From the IMG/VR virus record IMGVR_UViG_3300044730_001458, positions 1 to 27,932 of that record: DNA of 27,932 nt, one strand, 5' to 3'. The notes beneath the pieces were generated by a model. It searched no databases, had not been told where the DNA came from, and saw only the letters and a program-made list of their open reading frames with translations. Origin of the DNA: a virus. Below are positions 2,711-26,459 of this stretch, piece by piece (positions within the stretch are counted from its first letter, which is position 1; every line of letters starts with the position of its first letter). Made by a program: the position numbers and the translations under genes.

Positions 2711-3676
2711 TTATTTTTTGGCGACCTTGGCTACCGCTTCGGCGGCTCCGATGGTGATGCCCTTGGCGGCTTGCTCAGCCTGGTAGGTGCGGGCCGCTTC
2801 GGCTAGGGCGATGGGGTTCTCGGCAAAGTCCACGGTGTCGCTGGGCTTGGCTACCTCACCAAATTCCACCAGCTTTGGAAGGCCGTTTAACAGCCCCTTA
2901 AACCGCTCTAAAGGGGTCTCGCCTTCGGCAAATTCCACCTCGGTCGGGTGGCCAGGGTCGAGGTGGCAGAGGAGCGAAACCACGGTGTCCTTCTGACTGG
3001 GGTGCAGTTTCTCCTTCAGGCTCTCGGCAAAGGCAACGTGCTCGGCCTTGGTTAGCTCCGCTTCCTTGGCGGCTAGCTTGGCCTCGCGTTCAGCCAGGGC
3101 CGCTTCACGGGCAGCAATCTCTTCAGCAGTGGGCATAGGGTCTACCTGGGTAGGGGTGTCGTCAGGGTCAAACTCTTGTCCCCCCTCTCCTTCCTGGGCT
3201 AGGGGGCTAGGGGGTGAGGGCGGCTCGGCAGTGGGGGCATCCTCAGCAAAGGCCACCTCCACCACGTCGCTCTCTTCTTCGGCAAAGCTCACATCGGCCA
3301 GCCCCTTAATCGCCGGAGGCTGAGCACCCAACAGCCCAACGTCCCTGAGGTAGTAAACGCCAGGGACAGGGTTGCGGGGAGAGGTGGGGGTATAAAATCG
3401 GGCGCTGCGTTTCTTGAAGGGGCCACTCACCAACTCGGCAAATTCGGCCACGGTGTTATGGGCGGTGGCCACCAAGCCCCCCTCGCCAAACTCCAACGCC
3501 TGCACCCAGCCATAGGCCGGGGCGGTGTCTTTGGGATGGCCAATGACCACAGGCGCTTCGTGCTTGGCAGGGTCGTAGGCGGCGGCACTGGCCACCAGGT
3601 CGGCCTCCGAAAACACAACCGAGGTGCCGTTCTGGTCGGTAAAGCTGCCCGGTCGGGCAAGGGGCAAACGGGGCAT
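2711..3676 (-). CDS. Mu-like head maturation protease with C-terminal scaffold (gp32/I-type)
   Basis: A 321-residue protein starting at ATG 3676 (MPRLPLARPGSFTDQNG). The N-terminal half matches the Mu protease I/gp32 pattern: PGSFTDQNGTSVVFSEADL, AYDPAKHEAPVVIGHPKDTAPAYG, then FKKRSARFYTP and LLGAQPPAIKGL. The C-terminal half is scaffold-like: a charged heptad region (AAREAALAEREAKLAAKE) with helical tail. Between the two lies an in-frame type-B repeat (PPSPPSPLAQEGEGG, around residues 153-166). Two QKDTVVSL/PSDTVDF segments further down vaguely resemble decayed NDTVSF palindromes. It should cleave head scaffold during capsid maturation. It is separated from the gpG-like gene by a 2.8-kb cassette, unlike Mu, where I follows G closely. 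Confidence 0.85.
   Translation of the reverse strand: MPRLPLARPGSFTDQNGTSVVFSEADLVASAAAYDPAKHEAPVVIGHPKDTAPAYGWVQALEFGEGGLVATAHNTVAEFAELVSGPFKKRSARFYTPTSPRNPVPGVYYLRDVGLLGAQPPAIKGLADVSFAEEESDVVEVAFAEDAPTAEPPSPPSPLAQEGEGGQEFDPDDTPTQVDPMPTAEEIAAREAALAEREAKLAAKEAELTKAEHVAFAESLKEKLHPSQKDTVVSLLCHLDPGHPTEVEFAEGETPLERFKGLLNGLPKLVEFGEVAKPSDTVDFAENPIALAEAARTYQAEQAAKGITIGAAEAVAKVAKK
3179..3220 (-). repeat. Type-B repeat, copy 3, with altered core
   Basis: Lies between protease and scaffold halves. The central arm is changed to TTCCTGGGCTAGGGGGCTAG, so the hairpin is weakened but the reading frame is kept. Confidence 0.8.
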
Positions 3677-3810
3677 AGGGCGCACAGAAAAACCACTGCG
3701 CCCAGTATCGCCACCCGGCCCGCCCATGGGCAGGCGGCAGCCCTGCCACCTGCCCAATGCCCCAACCCCGCCCCACAATGGAGGCTGACCCCAAGGAGCC
3801 ACCCCGGCCC

Positions 3811-4143
3811 ATGAGCATCAAATCTAGCCCCGACCGCATTCTCGATATTCTGGAAGCCCGGTTCCAGCCCAGCACCGTCAGCCGCACGGCAGTGAATGCC
3901 AGCGCCAGCAGCGTGGCCCTCGTTGCCGCTAATGCTGGCCGGGTGGGCCTCGCGATTTTTAATAATGGCAGCACCGATCTGCATCTGGCCTATGGAACCA
4001 CGGCGGCTACCACGACGAGCTTTTCGGTGCGGGTTTCCCCTGGTGGATTCTATGAGGCTCCGGTGGGCTGGGCGGTGCTGGCGGTGCAAGGGATTTGGTC
4101 GGGTTCGCCCACGGGGACGGCTCAAATCACGGAGGTGCTGTAA
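3811..4143 (+). CDS. Putative virion surface/tail-fibre associated protein
   Basis: A 110-residue rightward gene, opposite to the late operon. Beta-rich pattern SRTAVNASASSVALVAANAGRVGL then AIFNNGSTDLHLAYGTTA, with C-terminal SFSVRVSPGGFYEAP and GIWSGSPTGTAQITEV. This is the arrangement seen in small phage proteins near tail fibres and other virion surface genes. The start chosen is ATG 3811 (MSIKSS); AAGGAG lies about 13 bases upstream, which is long, and an alternative ATG at 3778 is possible. The stop overlaps the start of the next gene as TAATG. Exact function is unknown; a virion surface role is inferred from sequence style and neighbours. Confidence 0.65.
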   Translation: MSIKSSPDRILDILEARFQPSTVSRTAVNASASSVALVAANAGRVGLAIFNNGSTDLHLAYGTTAATTTSFSVRVSPGGFYEAPVGWAVLAVQGIWSGSPTGTAQITEVL

Positions 4144-4679
4144 TGCCTTTGTTTCTGCCTAGACCTACCCTCGCTGATCTTGGTGGGCAATCCCTAGACA
4201 GCGACTTGACAGCCATTGCCGCCCTCGCAACCACAGCCTATGGCCGAGGGCTGTTGACATTGGCAGACTCTAGCGGGCTGACGATTCAATCAGGAACCTG
4301 GACTCCGGCTTACTCACTGTCGATCAGCGGCACCGTGACCCCTAGCACAGCAACAGGGTTCTGGTGGCGGATAGGCCGATTGGCCTACGCTACCGGGGTA
4401 TTAATATCTAGCGGAGTTTCTAGCCCATCTGGGACCGTTCGGATCACGCTTCCCTTCCCAGTTACCAGTAATAAAAATTTTTCCCTGGCTATCGGGCAGC
4501 TGTCAGGCTGGGGGGACTCTGTCAGCAATCTCTCTGGATATATCTCAACTTCAAGTTTGATCATTTTAGTGAAGCAAGCCCCATCATCAGCGGTAACAAC
4601 TACGGTAAATAGCAACGACCTAGCTACAGGGAGTAGTGGCAATGTTATTAGATTTTCCGTTTTATACGAGGTAGATTAG
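4143..4679 (+). CDS. Tail fibre protein (short)
   Basis: A 178-residue protein with two phage tail-fibre signatures. Near the N-terminus, SLDSDLTAIAALATTAYGRG plus LLTLADS is the hinge phrase found at the start of many fibre distal modules. After it, SGTWTPAYSLSISGTVTPS and WWRIGRLAYATGVLISSG leading to VRITLPFPVTSNKNF match the 'G.WTP...W.R.G....G......LPF' receptor-binding domain pattern. The second half of the gene (about 4380-4680) is clearly more AT-rich than the surroundings, consistent with exchange of the receptor-binding part. It is translationally coupled to the gene before and followed two bases later by a likely assembly gene. It is short for a whole fibre, so another fibre gene may lie outside the window. 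Confidence 0.8.
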   Translation: MPLFLPRPTLADLGGQSLDSDLTAIAALATTAYGRGLLTLADSSGLTIQSGTWTPAYSLSISGTVTPSTATGFWWRIGRLAYATGVLISSGVSSPSGTVRITLPFPVTSNKNFSLAIGQLSGWGDSVSNLSGYISTSSLIILVKQAPSSAVTTTVNSNDLATGSSGNVIRFSVLYEVD

Positions 4680-4681
4680 CC

Positions 4682-5203
4682 ATGACCACTATTCACAATG
4701 GCGTAATTTTCCACCGATCCGAAAACAATCACATTCGGTCTTTCTATCCGCACCAGCCCTTGCCCAATGACGCGCCTACAGAGGTGCAGATAGCGGCGGC
4801 AGAACTATGGACGCCTGAGTTTGTGGCAGAGTGGGTCGCTCAGCAAAACCCAGCGCCCACGCTGGAGGAAGCTATAGGGGCCAAGGTAGCCGAAATCAAA
4901 TCCCACTACTCCCGCCTGTCAGAATCCTTTGAATACCAGGGCCATATTTATCAATCTGACAAGGCTGCTGTCGCTGACCTAACGGCGTCTTTGTTGGTGG
5001 CTCAGACGGGCCTTCTGCCTGTTCCTTCCCCCTGGCGCACGATGGATAACGAGATGGTGCCCTTTACCAGTGCTGAGTTTGTGGCTTTCGCCACTGCGGT
5101 GTTTCAGCACAAGGAAGGGTTGTTCACTGAGATGGTCGGCCATGTCGATGCTGTCCGTGCTCTGGCGACGGTTGAGGCGGTGCAAGCCTACTCATTCGGG
5201 TAG
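4682..5203 (+). CDS. DUF4376-like tail fibre assembly/tail protein
   Basis: A 173-residue protein located just downstream of the fibre gene. Residues about 60-130 resemble DUF4376: AKVAEIKSHYSRLSESFEYQ, then GHIYQSDKAAVADLTASLL, then PSPWRTMDNEMVPFTSAEF. This family is found at the ends of phage tail fibre operons and in fibre-assembly proteins. The N-terminus (MTTIHNGVIFHRSENNHIRS) would correspond to the variable part. The gene ends inside a perfect hairpin (5182-5209) whose right arm starts at the stop codon. Function in fibre folding or attachment is inferred from family and position. Confidence 0.78.
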   Translation: MTTIHNGVIFHRSENNHIRSFYPHQPLPNDAPTEVQIAAAELWTPEFVAEWVAQQNPAPTLEEAIGAKVAEIKSHYSRLSESFEYQGHIYQSDKAAVADLTASLLVAQTGLLPVPSPWRTMDNEMVPFTSAEFVAFATAVFQHKEGLFTEMVGHVDAVRALATVEAVQAYSFG

Positions 5204-5209
5204 GCTTGC
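5182..5209. terminator. Hairpin at convergent gene ends
   Basis: Perfect inverted repeat: GCAAGCCTAC, loop TCATTCGG, GTAGGCTTGC. It spans the stop codon of the rightward fibre-assembly gene and sits 13 bases from the end of the leftward gene at 5222. There is no T-tract on either side, so intrinsic termination is uncertain; it could act in both directions or protect the 3' end. Confidence 0.5.
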
Positions 5210-5221
5210 CTTCGCCAGGGG

Positions 5222-5707
5222 CTAGGCCGCTAGGGCCATCAGCACCTCCCGGTCGGTGGGTAGGGCGGCTAGCAGTTGCGCCTTGCGGGCGGCGCGGGCA
5301 CCGGGCACCTTGGCTTGCTGGCCCAGGGTGCGCAGTTGGGGCACCGTCAGCCCTGCGTAGGTGCAGGTGATGGTGGCGGGGTAGTGGGGGTTGGCCTCAG
5401 TGCCAAAGGGGTCTGCGGGTTCGGCAGCGGGAGCCTCAGCGATGGGCCGCTCCAGGCAGGTCTCCACCTGGCCATCCACCCAGGACTGAATGATGATCCG
5501 GGCGGTTTGCCCCAGGGCGAAGGCGACGACGGCCCCGACGTACAACGACCAGACGGCCACCTTGACCGCTTGCACGGTACGAGGATGGGTGACCAGGGCG
5601 TGGATGCGCCAGCAGTCGCGGCGGGCCTTGCGATAGCAGATGGCAGCGGTGTCGGCGGCGCTGTGGGCGGTGATGGTCAGGAGGTTGAAATAGGAAGAAG
5701 ACTGCAT
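5222..5707 (-). CDS. Membrane protein with C-terminal SAP/Rho-N-like motif
   Basis: A 161-residue protein. Residues about 49-76 (VAVWSLYVGAVVAFALGQTA) form one membrane segment, preceded by a basic, aromatic N-terminal region. The C-terminal ~45 residues read LTVPQLRTLGQQAKVPGARA then RKAQLLAALPTDREVLMALA. This is the 'LT..qLR.lak...v.g....kkaeLl..L' helix-loop-helix pattern of SAP/Rho-N-type nucleic-acid-binding domains. The same type of ending occurs in the nearby protein at 6114-6410. Two cysteines flank the middle region. Function is unknown. It is divergent from the gene at 5876 and part of the cassette interrupting the head operon. The membrane plus SAP-like combination is unusual. Confidence 0.65.
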   Translation of the reverse strand: MQSSSYFNLLTITAHSAADTAAICYRKARRDCWRIHALVTHPRTVQAVKVAVWSLYVGAVVAFALGQTARIIIQSWVDGQVETCLERPIAEAPAAEPADPFGTEANPHYPATITCTYAGLTVPQLRTLGQQAKVPGARAARKAQLLAALPTDREVLMALAA

Positions 5708-5842
5708 GGTGGTGTCCCGTGTAGAGGTTGGGGTTTGTTTTGTCCTGGCCGCTGCTCTTCCGGCCCGTCACCCGATTTGGTATCCCGCTGGGGTGCGGCT
5801 CTGTGGTGTGGGGCGGTGTGGTGTGTGCCCCGTTGATATAGT

Positions 5843-5848
5843 TATAAT
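5843..5848 (+). promoter_or_regulatory. Candidate -10 box upstream of the 5876 gene
   Basis: A perfect TATAAT in the AT-rich pocket of the otherwise GC-rich divergent gap 5708-5875. No good -35 is visible at 16-18 bases upstream, so it may depend on an activator or serve the divergent gene. Confidence 0.4.
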
Positions 5849-5875
5849 TCCTTTGTAGGGAGTAAGTCAACCCCC

Positions 5876-6157
5876 ATGTACAAAAAAAGTTTAGAGGCCG
5901 TCCAGGCCACCGCCGCAGAACTCCCCAGCGCCCCGGTGGTGGTGCTGTCTGGGGTCATCCTCACGGCTCGGCATTGCTACGATGTGCTGGCCGCTGCCAG
6001 GGGGCCGATGGTGGCCCAGGCGGTGGCCGACCAGGTGAGCCACCGCACCGGGCGATTGATTGGCGCGGAAACCGTGCGGCAAATCCTCCGGGCCTTGCAG
6101 GCGGGTGGTCTGCCTATCGAGTCGCTGAATCGGAAGGGCTACCAACTGAAGCGCTAG
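5876..6157 (+). CDS. Small winged-helix-like DNA-binding protein
   Basis: A 93-residue rightward gene starting at ATG 5876 (MYKKSLEAVQATAAELPSAP). The second half reads QVSHRTGRLIGAETVRQILR then ALQAGGLPIESLNRKGYQL. This is a helix-turn-helix recognition pattern ending in a GYxL wing, as in small winged-helix regulators. It is convergent with the gene at 6114-6410, and the two coding regions overlap by 44 bases. AGGGAG lies upstream at long spacing. It has its own TATAAT box. A plausible role is local control of the fibre/SAP cassette, but this is inference from position only. Confidence 0.62.
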   Translation: MYKKSLEAVQATAAELPSAPVVVLSGVILTARHCYDVLAAARGPMVAQAVADQVSHRTGRLIGAETVRQILRALQAGGLPIESLNRKGYQLKR

Positions 6158-6410
6158 CCAACGCCGCCACCAGCTCGGCCTTGGTCATGGTTGAGTAGCC
6201 GGGGAGCTTCGCCGCCTTCGCCCTATCCTTCAGGTCGCGGATAGATAGAGTGGCTAGGTCAGGGGTGCTGGCCACCTGCATCCAGCCTTCGATCTGGGCT
6301 TGGGCTACCTCGCGAATCAGCGCTAGGCGAAGGCTAGTCCGTTGAGCAGGGGGGATCTGAAATTCTGCCAAGACCCTATCAATGCGTTGGGAGAGATCGG
6401 TGCTGTTCAC
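6114..6410 (-). CDS. SAP/Rho-N-motif protein
   Basis: A 98-residue protein starting at GTG 6410, with AGAGGA five bases upstream. The N-terminal half is helical (LSQRIDRVLAEFQIPPAQRT). Residues about 53-88 (LSIRDLKDRAKAAKLPGYST then MTKAELVAALA) match the Rho-N/SAP pattern 'LSv.dLK..Ak...l.GyskmkKaeLi..L', a short nucleic-acid-binding module. No catalytic motif is visible. Its 3' end overlaps the convergent gene at 5876-6157 by 44 bases, so the two transcripts would be antisense to each other. It is the first gene of the inserted cassette after the gpG-like gene; upstream, 6411-6517 holds nothing recognisable. Confidence 0.65.
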   Translation of the reverse strand: MNSTDLSQRIDRVLAEFQIPPAQRTSLRLALIREVAQAQIEGWMQVASTPDLATLSIRDLKDRAKAAKLPGYSTMTKAELVAALASASVGSPSDSATR

Positions 6411-6517: not shown

Positions 6518-6982
6518 CTAGGTGATGTAGTCGCCCAAGATCCGCAGGATCTCTTCCTGGTCTTGGGGGCTAATGCCCAGGAAGGGGCGGGCGGGGATGG
6601 TGGCCTTGCGGCCTCGGCCTGCTTGGCCCCCTAGCTGATGGATGGCGGCATAGACCTCGTTGCTGCCAATCACCACATCGCTGCGGCTGGCCTTGTAGCG
6701 GATGGTGTCGCGCAGGGTGCCGCGTTTGGCGAGGATTCTTTTGCCACCGTCTACAACACTCCTCATCCGGGCCTTGCGGGCGGCATAGCGGGGGGAGAGC
6801 GCAGCCCACTTGCTGCCGTCTGGGGCGGTCTCGGTGTCGAACCTGCTGCGGGTGGCCGTGATCATGTAGTCGCCAATCTCTTGCATGGCGGGGGTGAGGT
6901 CGGCCATGTGGTCTATCACCCGGTCGATGGCCTTGCGGAGTTCGGCATCGTCAATGCGGACGGTGATGTTAGCCATTGGCAT
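6518..6982 (-). CDS. Mu gpG-like virion morphogenesis protein (gp31)
   Basis: A 154-residue protein matching the phage virion morphogenesis family (Mu G, PF05069): ITVRIDDAELRKAIDRVIDH near the N-terminus, MQEIGDYMITATRSRFDTE, the hallmark PDGSKWAALSPRYAARKARM, then LRDTIRYKASRSDVVIGSNE, YAAIHQLGGQAGRG and ARPFLGISPQDQEEI. In Mu, G acts in head assembly or tail-length functions. Two starts are possible (ATG 6982 or ATG 6976); neither has a good ribosome binding site. The gene overlaps the small Cys-rich gene upstream by 14 bases and is followed, after 107 bases, by the cassette at 3.8-6.4 kb. Confidence 0.93.
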   Translation of the reverse strand: MPMANITVRIDDAELRKAIDRVIDHMADLTPAMQEIGDYMITATRSRFDTETAPDGSKWAALSPRYAARKARMRSVVDGGKRILAKRGTLRDTIRYKASRSDVVIGSNEVYAAIHQLGGQAGRGRKATIPARPFLGISPQDQEEILRILGDYIT

Positions 6983-7157
6983 TGGTTTCTAGTGGTTCAT
7001 AAAGGATGCCGTCCTTCTCGTTGCCCACGGGATTGATGTGCTCCACGTCGCCACTGGCAAACCAAATCGGAATCCCATCTGGATAGGCCGCGCACCCACG
7101 GGGTTCTCCCTTCCGGTAAGGGTAGATGTGCTTACACGTTTGACAGCTGCTAACCAT
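6969..7157 (-). CDS. Small Cys-rich protein directly downstream of the MuF gene
   Basis: A protein of about 62 residues with SCQTCKHIYPYRKGEPRGC then AAYPDGIPIWFASGDVEHIN and DGILYEPLE. The CxxC...C arrangement suggests a metal site. The 'C..C......G..CaAyPdGIP..i..G...H......DgI.yEP' pattern recurs in small proteins next to head morphogenesis genes in other phages. Start ATG 7157 coincides with the MuF stop (GGTGATGG) and has GGAGG nine bases upstream; GTG 7160 is an alternative. Position makes it a candidate partner or immunity protein for the MuF C-terminal domain, but the pattern also occurs beside MuF proteins without toxin tails, so this is tentative. Confidence 0.8.
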   Translation of the reverse strand: MVSSCQTCKHIYPYRKGEPRGCAAYPDGIPIWFASGDVEHINPVGNEKDGILYEPLETNANG

Positions 7158-9025
7158 CACCAATCACCTCCCCAATCTTCCTCTTCACTTACCGCCCCTG
7201 GATTGTAGTTATCCAGATCGCCTAAGCCCATCCATTCATCCTCCAGCGGGTCGCCTGCAATCACTCGGCTAGGGGCACTCCTGAGGGTGGCGGCAGATTC
7301 GTTCCCTTCGGGCAGCAGGTCCTTTGCGCTCACACTAGGATCAATCACGATCCTATCTAGCTGTTGACTTAGCCGTTCGTTTTCTACTGTCACCACCTGG
7401 CGCTGGTCAAAGGCAACGCCGTATCCCAGGTCGGTCAGGTAAATCGAATCATGCCCACGGGCCTTTAGGAATGCCGTTAGAGTTGCTGAGTCCACGCCGT
7501 TGGTTTGGCTTCCGGGGAAGGATGCGCCCAGAGCGTCCAAATCTGCGGAGGTCACCACATAGGGGTTGTTCGCTTTGATGTGGCTCGTAACTAAGCCAAC
7601 CTCGACGTTGCCGTTTTGGCTGGCTGCTTTGGCGTACAACTCCCCAATCCCTCGGTCTACGCCGAAGTAGGTTCCCTGGCCGTAGATGCCCTTGTCGTTC
7701 AGCCAGGGCTTGGCCCCATCGCCAGCAATGTCGTCGGTGATGCTGCGGCGGTTGCCGTGGTAGAACCGAGTCGTTCCGAAGTAGGAATCCTGGAGGTAGG
7801 CGGCGGCTTCGGTAGGGGTCATCTGGGGTTTCCAGCCCCGTGTACTATCCCCCGGCATCAGCGGCGCATTGATGGCCTGGTCTATGTCAGCAATCAATCG
7901 GTTCCGCCCTTGGGCGGCTTCTCGCGCCTGCTCCAGCCTGGACTGTTCAGCCTTATTAAATTTCACAGACGCCAAGGCCGCATCAATGGGGATGTAGCCA
8001 TTCAGGGAAACCGCATCCTTGACCGCTGTTTGATAATCGCCTTTTCGTGCCCTGGGGTTGGCCGCTTTGTATTCGTCCCAGCTCAGGTTGTGGGCAGCGG
8101 TGGGGTTGTCCTGGTTCTTCTGCCAGTAGCGGGCATCCACATACTCGCGGAATTGTCCCGGGGTGAGATCCGTTTTAGCGTTGGGGTTCCAGTTCGGATC
8201 GCCCTTCAGGCTTGGGGGCACCGTGGTAGAGGCTGGGCTGGCGGGAGTCGCCGCAGGCTGCGGGGCTGGCTTGGGTTGAAACGCCGCTGCCTCTCGCCTC
8301 ACCTGCGCCGCCAATGCCGGGTCTAGCCTGCGGGTCACCGCATCCAACAACTGGGCACGGTGCTGGGGGCCGCTGCTGCCGTGCAGGTGGCCCCAGCCTG
8401 CCGGTGGGTTCATCGCTGTGGTTTGCCCTGGCAGATCGGGGATGGGCAAGCGGTCGCCCAGTTGTGGCCCTGGCTCTGCGGCCAAGCCCCGCCGCTCCAG
8501 GTCTCGGTCGCTGAGGGTGAACACGCTGCACCGACAACCGTAGCCCTGGGGCGGGCTACCGAAGCTGCTCCAAAACGGGTCATCGTGGCGAAACACTTTG
8601 CCATCCAGCGCCAGGTGTTGGGGGCGGGGGTGGGCGCTGCCGCCGTGTCGCCATTGCCAGTAGGGGCGGCTGGTGGTCACTTGCTGCATCTGCTCGTAGC
8701 GGCCAGCGGCGTAGCTGGTTCGCAGGTTGGTGTCCCAAATCACGTTGGCCCGCCATGCGCTGCCGCCCCGGAACGTCCAGCCCGTGCGCTCCACAATGCT
8801 GTCAAACTCTTGCCGGAACTGCTCTAGGGTTTGCCCCGTGGCAATGGCCCGATCCACCGCCGACCGAAAATCATTCAGCACCGCGCCCTTGGCCCCAGCC
8901 ACCACAAAGGCGGCATCGTGCTCGGCCCCAGACACATCCCGGTAGCTGTCGGTGGGCACATTCACCCGCTCGGCCAGAAAGGCGATCTGCTCCTCAAACG
9001 GTAGCCGTTGCCAGGGTTCAGCCAT
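7157..9025 (-). CDS. MuF head morphogenesis protein with C-terminal ADP-ribosyltransferase-like domain
   Basis: The 622-residue protein starts at ATG 9025 (MAEPWQRLPFEEQ). Residues about 5-190 are the Mu F/SPP1 gp7 minor head domain: LPFEEQIAFLAERVNVPTDS, AIATGQTLEQFRQEFDSIVE, NLRTSYAAGRYEQMQQV and the Cys-containing GSPPQGYGCRCSVF. A Pro/Ala-rich linker follows (about 250-280). From about residue 410 to 570 the sequence resembles ADP-ribosyltransferases: RFYHGNRRS (H423), GIYGQGTYFGVD (Y453), NGNVEVGLVTSHIKANNPYVV, FLKARGHDSIYL, and FDQRQVVTVEN (E548 as candidate glutamate). This is the architecture of MuF polymorphic toxins carried in phage heads. F alone is usually about 400-430 residues, so the extra length is the tail domain. 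The H-Y-E assignment is by eye. Confidence 0.88.
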   Translation of the reverse strand: MAEPWQRLPFEEQIAFLAERVNVPTDSYRDVSGAEHDAAFVVAGAKGAVLNDFRSAVDRAIATGQTLEQFRQEFDSIVERTGWTFRGGSAWRANVIWDTNLRTSYAAGRYEQMQQVTTSRPYWQWRHGGSAHPRPQHLALDGKVFRHDDPFWSSFGSPPQGYGCRCSVFTLSDRDLERRGLAAEPGPQLGDRLPIPDLPGQTTAMNPPAGWGHLHGSSGPQHRAQLLDAVTRRLDPALAAQVRREAAAFQPKPAPQPAATPASPASTTVPPSLKGDPNWNPNAKTDLTPGQFREYVDARYWQKNQDNPTAAHNLSWDEYKAANPRARKGDYQTAVKDAVSLNGYIPIDAALASVKFNKAEQSRLEQAREAAQGRNRLIADIDQAINAPLMPGDSTRGWKPQMTPTEAAAYLQDSYFGTTRFYHGNRRSITDDIAGDGAKPWLNDKGIYGQGTYFGVDRGIGELYAKAASQNGNVEVGLVTSHIKANNPYVVTSADLDALGASFPGSQTNGVDSATLTAFLKARGHDSIYLTDLGYGVAFDQRQVVTVENERLSQQLDRIVIDPSVSAKDLLPEGNESAATLRSAPSRVIAGDPLEDEWMGLGDLDNYNPGAVSEEEDWGGDW

Positions 9026-9191
9026 AAATCGTCCCTCGGTTTTGCTCCTTCTCCCACAGCACATCCCGCAGCGCTAGATAGTCCTCCAGCAAGATGAGGA
9101 ACTGCCCCTCCAGCAAATCCCGTGGCATCAGCGCCAGGTGGTAGCGGGTAGAGTGCAGCGTGAACTCTCGCTCTAGGGTGGGTGGGTTCAT
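9018..9191 (-). CDS. Small hypothetical protein between portal and MuF
   Basis: A 57-residue protein starting at ATG 9191, which overlaps the stop of the upstream gene as ATGA; its own stop overlaps the MuF start by 8 bases. Sequence MNPPTLEREFTLHSTRYHLA followed by LLEGQFLILLEDYLALRDVL is amphipathic and helical at the C-terminus. No known motif is recognised. The coupled overlaps on both sides and the conserved place between portal and minor head protein support a real gene, perhaps a small head-assembly factor. Function is not assigned. Confidence 0.65.
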   Translation of the reverse strand: MNPPTLEREFTLHSTRYHLALMPRDLLEGQFLILLEDYLALRDVLWEKEQNRGTIYG

Positions 9192-9394
9192 GCGTCTTCC
9201 TGCTCCCACTGGTGGTCAAGCTCTTGGCGGATGCAAAGCGCCGCCGCCTCTTGCAGCACCCGCGCCCACTCCAGCGGCGTGGTGTGTGGGTCGGCCTGCA
9301 TGATGCGCATCAACTCCAGCTTGGCCTTGCTCATGCGGCCCAGGCTGTGGCACTCGGCACTGGTGCAGTGGCTCGGATGGTCGCTCAAAATCAT
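9188..9394 (-). CDS. Small hypothetical protein after portal
   Basis: A 68-residue protein whose ATG overlaps the portal stop as ATGA. N-terminus MILSDHPSHCTSAECHSLGR contains a His/Cys cluster (H6, H9, C10, C15, H16) that could bind a metal. The rest is helical (KLELMRIMQADPHTTPLEWA, then RVLQEAAALCIRQELDHQWE). It is unknown to me. It lies in a run of three small overlapping genes between portal and MuF, suggesting a fixed translational unit. A structural or assembly role is possible but not shown by sequence. Confidence 0.65.
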   Translation of the reverse strand: MILSDHPSHCTSAECHSLGRMSKAKLELMRIMQADPHTTPLEWARVLQEAAALCIRQELDHQWEQEDA

Positions 9395-10965
9395 GGGGTC
9401 TCCTCCTGGGCAATCTCGGTCTGTACGGCATAGCGGCCCGTCAGCCTAGCGGCGGTCATCGCCTGGGTCAGCGTCTCTGCTAGGGGGCCGCTCTCAAGCT
9501 CCGGGAACAGGGTGATTAAACGGTCGTTAAATTCCTCCAGGCTCTCGGCCTCGCCCAGCTCCCGCCGCACCACCTCCACCATCGCCACAATCTCCGGCTG
9601 CGCCTGCGCCCGCAACCGCAACAGCAGCGGCCCAATGGGGTCGTCCTCACCCTCCGCCATCTCCACCTCCTCCACCTCTTGTTCCCCCTCTCCTCCCTGG
9701 GAGAGGGGGCTAGGGGGTGAGGGCATCTCCATCAACTCATACCCATCCCCATACACCTCCGCCACACTTTCCACCGTGCGCCGAAAGCCCATCTCAAACA
9801 GAAGCTTGTCGCGGGTGGCCACCTCGGTCAGGTCGTCCTCATCCTCAAAGATCCAGGCGAACTGCGGCGGCTTGGCCCCCTCTCCCAGGATGGGGCGGTT
9901 CAGTTCCACAATCCAGCGAATCAGGGTGCGGTCTAGGGTGCGGCTCAGTAGGTCGGCATCGGCCTTGATGATGGCCCCCATGCCTTCACGGGCCACCTCG
10001 TCACGGGCACGGCTACCGCCGCCGTCGCTCTGGTTGGTGGTGCCCGTCTGGCCCAGGATGCACTCACTGATCTGCTCGTCGCACCACCGGGCCAGCCCCT
10101 CATAGGTGGTCACGTTGCCGGATCGGGTGGCCTCCAAAAACTCAATCAGCATCCCCTCAGGCAGGGTGGTGGCCATGCCCTGGGTGAGGTTGGCCAGCGC
10201 CTCTAGGAGGATGGCCTTGTCGGCTTCGCTGGTGCCCGGTGGGTATTTGCCCACGGGGGTGGGGCTACCAAACTTGTCGGCAAATATCAGCCAGAACTGA
10301 ATGTTCTGCCGCTTAAAAAATACAGGCCAAAACACTTTGCTGCACAGGCCCAAACCGTAGGGGTTGGCATCGCTGGCGGTGGGGCTGTGGTAGATGAACT
10401 TGCGGTCGGGGATAGGCTCTCCCCGGCTCCCGCTGGCATCGGTAATCAGCCGCAGTTCCCAGGCTCCGGCTTCGCCCAGCACCCAACCAAACCGCCGTTG
10501 ATCCTTGGGTCGCACCTCGGCCACAAAGATTTCCTGGCCATCCTGCGCCCACATAATCTCGCCGACGCCATAGCCCTTGGCCGTCGCCTCCAACAGGTTC
10601 AGGGCCACGCCATCAAAGCCAGACCCACCGTAGTAGCTGGCCAGGGCATACTCCCTCGCCCCCAGCGCCTCTAGCTGGGCATCCACTAGGTCGGCGGCTT
10701 TGATGTCGGCCTCGTCGTCGCTGGCAGGTTCTAGCTTCCAATCACGGGCAATCAGTTCCAGCTTGCGCTGCTGAAAGACGGCATGGGCGTGGGGGTCTTC
10801 CATCACTCGGTCATACAGCAACAAGCCTTGCCCACCGCCACGGGCTTGCAGGGTGCGGTCGGGGTTTTGCAATACAAAGCCCTGGCCCCCAAAAAAGCCC
10901 ATGAAGCTGAGGAAGGATTTTTGCAGGGTGGCAAATTCTTGGCGCAGGTTGGCGGGTACTGGCAT
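9391..10965 (-). CDS. DUF935 portal protein (Mu gp29-type)
   Basis: A 524-residue protein matching the Mu-like portal family DUF935, which forms the dodecameric ring for DNA entry and exit. Recognisable segments: DRVMEDPHAHAVFQQRKLEL then IARDWKLEPASDDEADIKAA, TAKGYGVGEIMWAQDGQEIF, VRPKDQRRFGW, FIYHSPTASDANPYGLGLCS, ADKFGSPTPVGKYPPGTSEA, LPEGMLIEFLEATRSGNVTT and CDEQISECILGQTGTTNQSD. Length fits the family. An in-frame type-B repeat (MPSPPSPLSQGGEGEQEVEE) sits near residues 414-430, between the portal core and a C-terminal helical tail of about 95 residues. It follows the terminase by 15 bases. Confidence 0.93.
   Translation of the reverse strand: MPVPANLRQEFATLQKSFLSFMGFFGGQGFVLQNPDRTLQARGGGQGLLLYDRVMEDPHAHAVFQQRKLELIARDWKLEPASDDEADIKAADLVDAQLEALGAREYALASYYGGSGFDGVALNLLEATAKGYGVGEIMWAQDGQEIFVAEVRPKDQRRFGWVLGEAGAWELRLITDASGSRGEPIPDRKFIYHSPTASDANPYGLGLCSKVFWPVFFKRQNIQFWLIFADKFGSPTPVGKYPPGTSEADKAILLEALANLTQGMATTLPEGMLIEFLEATRSGNVTTYEGLARWCDEQISECILGQTGTTNQSDGGGSRARDEVAREGMGAIIKADADLLSRTLDRTLIRWIVELNRPILGEGAKPPQFAWIFEDEDDLTEVATRDKLLFEMGFRRTVESVAEVYGDGYELMEMPSPPSPLSQGGEGEQEVEEVEMAEGEDDPIGPLLLRLRAQAQPEIVAMVEVVRRELGEAESLEEFNDRLITLFPELESGPLAETLTQAMTAARLTGRYAVQTEIAQEETP
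9683..9723 (-). repeat. Type-B repeat, copy 4, in the portal gene
   Basis: Intact core CTCCTCCCTGGGAG followed by AGGGGGCTAGGGGGTGAG. Encodes PSPPSPLSQGGEGE between the portal core and its C-terminal tail. Confidence 0.9.
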
Positions 10966-16700: not shown

Positions 16701-17081
16701 TTACTTTTCGATTTCCCAAATCGGCACCCACCGTTCCGCCCTGGGCATGGTCGGCTCTTGTCCCCCCTCTCCTCCCTGGGAGAGGGGGCTAGGGGGTGAG
16801 GGCGCTTTGGCGGCTCCCTCCTCAAACCGCTGCTCCAAATAGCCCCAATCCCCCTGGCGGATCTTGTTGCGGATGGCGTTGATGGCATCGCCCACCTCGG
16901 CGGGTAGCTCGTGCTTGCGAAGGAACTTGCGCGTCCCCATCACCAACTGGGGTTGAAAATCGTTGAACCCCGGCCCCGTCCACAGGTGGCCCAGGCCCAC
17001 GCCCACCAGCTCCGGGTATTTGTGCCGCTGAAAGGCAGCGGCCTGTCGGTCAATCGGCTTGCCACAGTGAGGACAGTGCAT
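16701..17081 (-). CDS. Short early protein with N-terminal CPHCG motif
   Basis: A 126-residue protein starting at ATG 17081 (MHCPHCGKPIDRQAAAFQRH). One CxxC pair (C3, C6) with nearby His suggests a small metal-binding knuckle. The middle is GVGLGHLWTGPGFNDFQPQL, LVMGTRKFLRKHELP and AINAIRNKIRQGDWGYLEQR. The C-terminal third carries an in-frame type-B repeat (APSPPSPLSQGGEGGQEP), and the last residues RAERWVPIWEIEK follow it. No function assigned. Two bases separate it from the previous gene. The repeat may have extended an originally shorter protein. Confidence 0.68.
   Translation of the reverse strand: MHCPHCGKPIDRQAAAFQRHKYPELVGVGLGHLWTGPGFNDFQPQLVMGTRKFLRKHELPAEVGDAINAIRNKIRQGDWGYLEQRFEEGAAKAPSPPSPLSQGGEGGQEPTMPRAERWVPIWEIEK
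16760..16802 (-). repeat. Type-B repeat, copy 7
   Basis: Canonical copy inside the CPHCG gene; core CTCCTCCCTGGGAG, identical to those at 9683, 24413 and 26139. Confidence 0.9.
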
Positions 17082-24125: not shown

Positions 24126-26459
24126 TCAGGCAAAGCGGCGGCGTTGTTCCGCCCATAGCTTGTGAGCCCGTTCTTTCTTCAGCACGCCCTCGCGCAGGTC
24201 GTCTGCCTCAGTCGTCGATAGTCCAAACTCTTGGCCCAGGGCATAGGCCGCGTCGGCATCCAGGCTCAGCACCCCGGTAATGTTGTCCCGGCCTGTGCTG
24301 GTTAGCTCCATCGCCATGTGCTTCCGCAGTTCCGGATCGGCTTCGTGGTTCCCCGCCCGATAGTGGAAGGCAAACCAATGCCACGGAGCCTTAAACCGAC
24401 TCGGCTCCTCTTGTCCCCCCTCTCCTCCCTGGGAGAGGGGGCTAGGGGGTGAGGGCTGCGAGGGTGAGGGCACCAAGGCCATCGCTGCCGCCGTTTCTGT
24501 CCCGGCCTCTGCCACCATGGCCACCCGCACCGCCTCGGTCACCTGTTGCTGGGCCACCAGGTCAGCGGTGGGCGACAGCGCCAAATCAGGCCGCTTCTCC
24601 AGTTCCCGCACCACCCGCTTCCCGGCCTTGGCAGCTTCCTTAGTCCCGGCCACAATCCCCTGCTGAATCCGCTTGGCGGTCTGGGCCGCTGCAATCAGCT
24701 CGGCCTTGCTCATGGCGATCTCCCACTTGGCCATGCCGTAGTAGTTCTGCATGTCCAGGCTATAAACATGGATGCGCCGGAGGTCGTTGCCATCCATCGC
24801 CACTCGCAGCTTGTCGCCAGCGCTCACCAGGGCCAGGTGCTCGGTAATGTACCGCTTGCCTTCCCACACCACGCAATCCCGCCGTGCTGTCACTTCGGCA
24901 GAGTAGGCCAGCCGTCGCAGTTCGGTTTCGCCCAAGGGGCAATCTGTCCGCCGCCAGCCCTGCGCCACAAACTCGGCCAGCTTGGCATTGGGGCTAAGGC
25001 CATCCATGCCCACCCCAGTGTGGGCGGTCTGGTGAATCTCCTCGGTCAGCGCATCCAACCAGCGTTGGAAGGTTTCAAACTGGGGCGCGTTCTCTAGCAA
25101 AAACTGCTCTCCCTTCGCCGCCCTAATCTGTTCCCGCTGGGCTACGTTGTGCCCCACAAAGCTGGGTTCGGCTTCCATCCGTCGCACCAGGTCGCCCAGG
25201 GCTTTTTCTACGTTGCCCTTCTCTTGCGGCTTGCCCGGTATGCACGGGTTCACAATAATTCCGAGGGTGTTGCACAGGGTCGTAATCCGGCTGTTGATGA
25301 ACTCTCGCCCGTTGTCGGGCCTAATCTCGGTCGGCATCCCCCAGTCTTCAATCGCCGCCAGCAGCAGCAGGGCCGTGGTCTCGCCCTTGGGCACCGGGCT
25401 AAGCAGCACTTTGCGCCGCCGCGTCGCCACATCCAGCACCATGCCCACGGCAAATCGGGCCACCTTACCCTCCAGTTCCAGCAACACGTCGTTGCGGGTA
25501 AAGTCGAGCTGCCAGCGTTGGTTCGGCTCCAAGTCTTGATCCAGCCGCCCAATCGCCATCGCCACCTTGTTCCGAAAATCTTTGGGGCTAACCAGCGTCA
25601 AAAACTGAACCTTACACTCGGTTTGAAACCACCTTAAATACCGCAATACCTGGGCATAGCTGGGGCATTGTTCCTCTGGCAAGGCCCGTTGCAAGCGGCG
25701 ATACACCGTCCTTGGCCCACAGGCCGCAAGGGTCTGCTCACTCAACACGCCCCACACCATTTTCTCTAGCTCCGCATCCTCCCGAATCCCGTTCAGTGGG
25801 CCGCTGCGGTGTTTGCCGCCCAGTGGCCCCACGGCCACATCTGTCCCGGCGCTGCCCTGGTCGCGCAGTTGCCGCCAGCGGTGCAGGGTGCTGCGGCTCA
25901 CCCGCCTCACATGCTCCCGCACCCAGTCGGGCACCGCCACCTGGCCCAGGCCATACGCCTCACAAAACCGATACTCGCAATCCACCTGGCCCTCCACCCG
26001 GTGCCTCACGCACCACGGTGCCACCAGCGCCAACACCAGCGCCCGCGCCGCCGCCCGCACCTCTGACCGGGTGCCCATCGGTCGCTCAAAGTCTTTGCAG
26101 TGGGTCAACTGCCAATCCCCAGAATGCAACCCCTCCGGTTCCCCCTCTCCTCCCTGGGAGAGGGGGCTAGGGGGTGAGGGCTCATCCACCACCACCTCAC
26201 AATCCACCGCCACCGCCTCATCCACGGGCTGGGCACCGCCCACCATCTCCCCGGCCTCCTTATATAGAGAGAGGCCTTCCTTCTCAGCGATGGTCGCCTG
26301 CCAATCCTCCGGCAGGTCAGCCAAGCAATACTCAAGCCCTTTGCCCTTTGCCCGTTTGCGGCCTGGGATAGCGTTGTTTTTGATGCGCTTGAGCACCGCA
26401 GGCAGGGTCTTTCCTGTTAGCTCAGCAATGCGAGGCGCTGGCAACCAATACTCAGTCAT
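24126..26459 (-). CDS. Mu-type DDE transposase (MuA-like)
   Basis: A 777-residue transposase. N-terminal Mu-type HTH (about 4-60: YWLPAPRIAELTGKTLPAVL; GLEYCLADLPEDWQ). A linker at 70-112 is built from repeats: MVGGAQP from the GTGGGC palindrome and EPSPPSPLSQGGEGEPEG from type B. End-binding region about 120-290 (RVSRSTLHRWRQLRDQG). DDE core: RWQLDF (D319), RPDNGREF (D382), GKPQEKGNVEKALG (E418), spacing typical of the family. Then a basic, mainly helical part, a second type-B repeat at about 669-682 and a C-terminal domain RFKAPWHWFAFHYRAGNHEA thought to contact the ATPase. MuA is 663 residues, so this one is longer. Joins phage ends to target DNA for integration and replication. No frameshift or lost catalytic residue, so it could be active. 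Confidence 0.96.
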   Translation of the reverse strand: MTEYWLPAPRIAELTGKTLPAVLKRIKNNAIPGRKRAKGKGLEYCLADLPEDWQATIAEKEGLSLYKEAGEMVGGAQPVDEAVAVDCEVVVDEPSPPSPLSQGGEGEPEGLHSGDWQLTHCKDFERPMGTRSEVRAAARALVLALVAPWCVRHRVEGQVDCEYRFCEAYGLGQVAVPDWVREHVRRVSRSTLHRWRQLRDQGSAGTDVAVGPLGGKHRSGPLNGIREDAELEKMVWGVLSEQTLAACGPRTVYRRLQRALPEEQCPSYAQVLRYLRWFQTECKVQFLTLVSPKDFRNKVAMAIGRLDQDLEPNQRWQLDFTRNDVLLELEGKVARFAVGMVLDVATRRRKVLLSPVPKGETTALLLLAAIEDWGMPTEIRPDNGREFINSRITTLCNTLGIIVNPCIPGKPQEKGNVEKALGDLVRRMEAEPSFVGHNVAQREQIRAAKGEQFLLENAPQFETFQRWLDALTEEIHQTAHTGVGMDGLSPNAKLAEFVAQGWRRTDCPLGETELRRLAYSAEVTARRDCVVWEGKRYITEHLALVSAGDKLRVAMDGNDLRRIHVYSLDMQNYYGMAKWEIAMSKAELIAAAQTAKRIQQGIVAGTKEAAKAGKRVVRELEKRPDLALSPTADLVAQQQVTEAVRVAMVAEAGTETAAAMALVPSPSQPSPPSPLSQGGEGGQEEPSRFKAPWHWFAFHYRAGNHEADPELRKHMAMELTSTGRDNITGVLSLDADAAYALGQEFGLSTTEADDLREGVLKKERAHKLWAEQRRRFA
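24413..24455 (-). repeat. Type-B repeat, copy 15
   Basis: Canonical copy in the transposase C-terminal part, encoding QPSPPSPLSQGGEGGQEE. Confidence 0.9.
26139..26180 (-). repeat. Type-B repeat, copy 16
   Basis: Canonical copy in the transposase N-terminal linker. About 46 bases away is a partial GTGGGC palindrome (26227-26244) in the same linker. Confidence 0.9.

Follow-up and report, generated by a model that had tools for sequence, protein, structure and literature searches.

A reversed, probable host-recognition module in a probable cargo slot between head genes G and I of Mu/B3-like cyanobacterial phages

Why do fibre genes lie backward inside the head region of a transposable phage? 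The question is raised by the window, the whole stretch of 27,932 nucleotides analysed here, which is an entire IMG/VR record (IMGVR_UViG_3300044730_001458) and a 27.9-kb piece of a Mu/B3-like transposable phage. Membership in this group was borne out by profile matches to a transposase (phrog_310, E 1.6e-68, with Mu-transpos_C), by a MuB-type ATPase (phrog_296, E 1.2e-42), a Mor activator (E 2.2e-9) and the Mu-type head genes F, G and I. The portal matched Portal_Mu (E 1.9e-100) and the major capsid protein (MCP) phrog_1005 (E 1.5e-80). The head genes occupy the minus strand in the order TerL, portal, F, G, I, small head gene and MCP. A first-pass annotation had described a split of about 2.8 kb between G and I with six inserted genes; the separation indeed measured 2.7-2.8 kb, and all six genes were present on the strands given, namely SAP98 (-), wHTH93 (+), memSAP161 (-) and then fibA, fibB and fibC (+). 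The features of this slot are as follows.

2711-3676, minus strand: I (protease/scaffold), left border of the slot; phrog_976, E 2e-79
3677-3810: divergent I/fibA spacer of 134 bp, presumed promoter site for both genes
3811-4143, plus strand: fibA, small adaptor-like protein of 110 aa, first gene of the reversed module; open reading frame with no family match
4143-4679, plus strand: fibB, fibre of 178 aa with helical N-terminus and C-terminal beta-sandwich knob, from the predicted structure
4682-5203, plus strand: fibC, DUF4376 probable tail-fibre chaperone; PF14301, E 3.1e-14, and PHROG tail families down to 8e-12
5182-5209: hairpin where fibC and memSAP161 converge; folding energy of 5170-5225 -31.4 kcal/mol, z -4.75
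5222-5707, minus strand: memSAP161, membrane segment and SAP/Rho_N-like C-terminus; weak Rho_N match, E 0.013
5708-5875: divergent memSAP161/wHTH93 spacer with TATAAT at 5843-5848; 149-bp length polymorphism between strains
5876-6157, plus strand: wHTH93, small winged-helix protein; HTH_12, E 5.5e-5
6114-6410, minus strand: SAP98, Rho_N/SAP protein just after G; Rho_N, E 3.5e-7
6518-6982, minus strand: G (phage virion morphogenesis, Phage_tail_S), right border of the slot; PF05069, E 1.6e-37

The start of gene I was placed most likely at 3676 (MPRLPL...) by comparison with relatives. On the opposite strand, the stop codon of fibA overlaps the start of fibB (TAATG). A partial homologue of FibA (40% over 60 aa) is encoded just upstream of a large gene in the podovirus MW202718, and the AlphaFold model of FibA (pLDDT 48) was too poor for a structure search. 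No sequence family was matched by FibB. The knob predicted in its model, which is of modest confidence (pLDDT 63), resembled the Det7 tailspike 6f7k in Foldseek (E 2.3e-5, TMq 0.60), and the model also matched many predicted phage fibre proteins, several of them from Synechococcus phages. FibC shares the DUF4376 family with the tail fibre chaperone of Alteromonas V22 (E 4e-7) and is on this basis probably a fibre chaperone. A fibre gene followed directly by a DUF4376 chaperone gene is the arrangement known from Alteromonas V22 and A5 (PMC7289586, PMC10579305). There the module stands among tail genes on their strand, whereas in the window it lies backward among head genes, with a fibre shorter than that of V22. 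Together, fibA, fibB and fibC make up a host-recognition module whose kind is familiar and whose position, reversed and recurrent, is unusual. The fibre tip had been called AT-rich, and its composition does differ: GC falls to 49.6% at 4501-5000 versus about 62% around it. The variable part of fibB has 51% GC versus about 62%, and the stretch 5001-6000 with memSAP161 is no different from its surroundings.

To place the arrangement among relatives, phages gathered by capsid and protease and from cyanobacterial genomes were compared. Among 167 distinct I genes, G was found upstream in 89 and on the same strand in 88. In 64 of these 88 same-strand pairs G and I are at most 450 bp apart, so that the cassette is an insertion at the level of the family. 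Beetrevirus B3 and other Pseudomonas transposable siphophages (JBD67, PM105) share with the window the order portal-F-G-I-(small head gene)-MCP and have MCPs 46-48% identical to that of the window. In B3, unlike the window, an empty gap of 190 bp separates G from I, and the gene annotated as a fibre stands at the right end. The earlier reading of the cassette as an insertion was thus right relative to the wider family. Conservation of the arrangement in all relatives had been named at that time as evidence against an insertion. The outcome lies in between: the nearest relatives and another cyanobacterial clade share the arrangement, and the wider family lacks it.

A reversed cassette in the G/I slot was observed in six near-identical contigs of the window clade, in a Tildeniella prophage (L006/L013) and in the second clade, which comprises five lineages (L008, L009, L165, L133 and L183). 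The Tildeniella torsiva prophage (L013), with an MCP 77% identical to that of the window, has the same slot, a SAP98 homologue after G and three reversed genes before I, but a different fibre and a different third gene. Most reversed cassettes follow a three-gene size pattern, with products of 110, 178 and 173 aa in the window, 121, 258 and 128 aa in L006, 108, 238 and 182 aa in L165, 114, 252 and 167 aa in L133, and 147, 278 and 424 aa in L183; in L008 and L009 there is a single main reversed gene. By eye, the first genes of L008, L009 and L183 share the N-terminal motif M-[NK]-F-x-S-x-G-x-L. Most cassette proteins outside the window lineage had no family match, and a few gave weak hits, such as to the tail family phrog_25379 (E 7e-4); their designation as putative fibres draws mainly on position, the size pattern and these hits. 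Other cargo occupies the slot elsewhere: a reversed defence-like pair, GmrSD_N and RiboL-PSP-HEPN, in L241 (3950-5604), a reversed defence-like pair with DUF488 in L169 (10597-12368), and a forward fibre-like cassette in L268. A literature search found no published account of this reversed G/I arrangement.

In the tree of I, the phages with reversed cassettes fall in two strong clades that do not group in the free tree. Constraining the two clades together was not rejected (p-AU 0.175), and a single origin of the reversed cassette was thus neither rejected nor demonstrated. An ordinary tail-fibre set might also have been relocated once by inversion rather than having entered a recurrent slot. 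Large inversions do occur in the group: in L008 and in genome G316 head and tail blocks have opposite orientations, and the fibre strand there is also the tail strand. Close relatives argue otherwise: L183 and L165 have close I genes, yet unrelated-looking cassettes on the same strand at the same junction, which indicates that the content changes while slot and strand stay. Moreover, the cassette of the window clade runs against head and tail genes alike, and we regard a single inversion as improbable.

The inverted block in these phages (L008 with L020, record G007; L165/L166, genome G316) extends from the portal C-terminus to the major tail protein and is inverted relative to the tape-measure/tail block. 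In G007 it is also opposite to TerL, and the C-terminal part of the portal is a separate gene. The tail end of the G316 prophage (L166 14623-17001, L165 2-2284) carries tandem copies of a gene starting MDDLTRKIQEQSKLRYQ.

The six genes had originally been taken as a single moron-like unit with its own promoter, a moron being an independently expressed insert between phage genes (PMC4378225). The comparison with relatives did not support such a unit. A SAP98 homologue is located behind G in L006 (Tildeniella), and a similar Rho_N gene behind G in L270 (genome G842); these counterparts right after G in two other phages indicate that SAP98 belongs to the head operon. memSAP161 and wHTH93 are absent from the Tildeniella prophage, where a pentapeptide ion-channel gene takes their place. 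Of 64 genomes from the order of Tildeniella, one, G434, contained a homologue of the memSAP161 N-terminus (69% over 85 aa), outside any recognisable copy of the window's phage. In the spacer between memSAP161 and wHTH93, the 149-bp segment is present in L005, L010 and L002 and absent from the window, L003 and L004; it is bordered by the short repeat TGTAGAGGTTGGG.

The proposed promoter, TATAAT at 5843-5848, points right, away from the fibre genes that lie to its left, and has no -35 element. No site passed a sigma-70 scan at this position, and one site was obtained elsewhere versus 1.2 expected. wHTH93 is the only gene that this box could serve, and a single moron unit driven from 5843 was rejected because the box faces away from the fibres. 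A lysogenic conversion unit of moron type, active in the prophage and not needed for lytic growth, is nevertheless conceivable for the module. It lies between genes that are adjacent in relatives (64 of 88 same-strand pairs within 450 bp), its fibre tip is AT-rich, the slot bears defence-like genes in other phages, and wHTH93 and memSAP161 are patchy. The three fibre genes, however, look structural (fibre and chaperone), the TATAAT does not face them, and fibA is 100% identical among the sampled strains while the tip varies, which is the pattern of a host-recognition gene. This explanation was judged unlikely.

The hairpin where fibC and memSAP161 meet tail to tail, a further element of the first-pass annotation, is real: no shuffled sequence folded as well (z -4.75), although a T run after it is absent. 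Leftward late transcription had been expected to cross the fibre genes antisense on its way to the capsid genes. Such a crossing need not occur. KS10, TJ1 and Bise have gene I at the head of a separate operon behind regulatory genes, which makes G/I a natural module border, and in the window the hairpin lies between the convergent units. In the sister clade, the spacer between I and the first cassette gene holds a conserved 24-bp element with the dyad CTGA-N6-TCA, which recurs near other gene starts, for example close to the portal genes in L008/L020; some of these recurring sites had gone into the matrix itself, so the recurrence is suggestive only. The recurring dyad in the spacer suggests that gene I has its own promoter in that clade. 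The I/fibA spacer of the window contained no counterpart of the dyad and no promoter consensus, and around the start of I in the window no convincing repeated promoter element emerged.

The strongest variation within the module lies in fibB. The six near-identical contigs, five of which come from separately numbered metagenomes, carry four fibB alleles; the others are 47, 55 and 56% identical to that of the window, with nearly identical flanks. Identity across the contigs amounts to 100% for fibA, about 94% for fibC and about 99% for memSAP161, and the strongly variable stretch extends from about 4220 to 4680. The same allele was recovered in two datasets (L003 and L004), which argues against an assembly error. 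These sequences suggest that the fibre tip was recently exchanged between near-identical phages. Phage Mu likewise has alternative fibre parts that could set host range, in its G segment (S/U tail fibres). Unlike there, neither a Gin-type recombinase nor large flanking inverted repeats were found for the window, and the variants are alleles in different contigs.

Four alleles among near-identical phages could in principle be the product of a dedicated machine, such as an invertible segment, a diversity-generating retroelement or silent cassettes. The six clade records, which are fragments, contained no match to RVT_1 (reverse transcriptase) or Resolvase (Gin-type serine recombinase). No large inverted repeats flank the fibre region, a second or silent fibB copy was not found in the clade DNA, and the alleles differ throughout, with indels. 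With no recombinase, reverse transcriptase or duplicate found in these fragments, the invertible-segment and retroelement readings were dropped, and a dedicated machine of any kind appears very improbable. The same gaps leave exchange with other phages as the likeliest source of the alleles, as we infer.

Outside the slot, the window encodes an HU/IHF-like DNA-binding protein downstream of the capsid gene (40-342; phrog_379, E 1.2e-30), also present in L002, L003, L005 and the Tildeniella prophage. In L010, the F protein (window 7157-9064; L010 3442-4653) has an unrelated sequence in place of the C-terminal part after about residue 265, with a small extra gene behind the replaced tail. This tail is a second exchangeable module and by eye resembles polymorphic effector tails; neither the window's nor the L010 tail had a Pfam match. 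A repeat, PSPPSPLSQxGEGE (in another frame PHPLAPSPRxxRG), sits in frame within many unrelated genes of the window's phage, for example at window positions 3180-3230, 731-1174, 9391-10965, 16701-17081 and 26105-26335.

Where on the virion the fibre would be borne is a separate matter. The fibres might attach to head or neck instead of the tail and for that reason be encoded among head genes, in the manner of the head spike fibres of the gene transfer agent RcGTA, which bind capsule (PMC10218006). The location of the module between two head genes and the absence of a second DUF4376 gene from related records are in line with this. On the other hand, the known examples of DUF4376 chaperones and of the matched folds come from tail fibres and tailspikes, and gene position does not fix virion position; we consider head or neck attachment doubtful. 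The right end of the window's phage was in no contig found, the sole tail-reaching contig stopping inside tail genes, and a second fibre set may therefore be present there. Additional genes lie at the tail end of the Tildeniella prophage, among which no clear fibre family was found.

Taken with roughly two chances in three, the reading we prefer is that the G/I junction is a cargo slot in which cyanobacterial phages carry a reversed, exchangeable host-recognition module. It builds directly on gene order, orientation, slot occupancy in relatives, the allele pattern, the DUF4376 identity and the knob fold match. Its promoters, timing, virion location, ligand and exchange mechanism are put forward as a proposal. 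The junction would separate two head operons in transposable (Mu/B3-like) phages, and the module would supply an adaptor-like protein, a short, probably trimeric fibre with a variable knob and a dedicated folding chaperone. Transcription of the module would probably proceed rightward out of the 134-bp spacer shared with gene I, leftward transcription of I and the capsid genes would begin in the same spacer, and the hairpin at 5182-5209 may keep the fibre transcript apart from the leftward memSAP transcript. The fibre would be made late, folded with the help of the DUF4376 protein and borne on the virion, where its knob may bind a glycan or protein of the cell surface. Recombination between related phages would replace entire modules and, on a finer scale, the knob part of fibB; the fibA side, which is conserved, and the fibC side, which is largely so, could offer the homology for it. 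A more far-reaching version is tentative and rather unlikely as a whole: the junction would be a general, orientation-tolerant exchange slot and the main host-recognition locus of the cyanobacterial phages, possibly for head-attached fibres, with knobs swapped by homologous recombination between co-resident prophages.

The transposing phages of filamentous cyanobacteria have been little studied. A fixed slot would explain how fibre genes can lie backward inside the head region, and its interchangeable fibre-chaperone modules offer a direct place to seek host-range determinants in such prophages. The gene-order rule that places receptor-binding proteins at the tail end is unsafe in this phage group.
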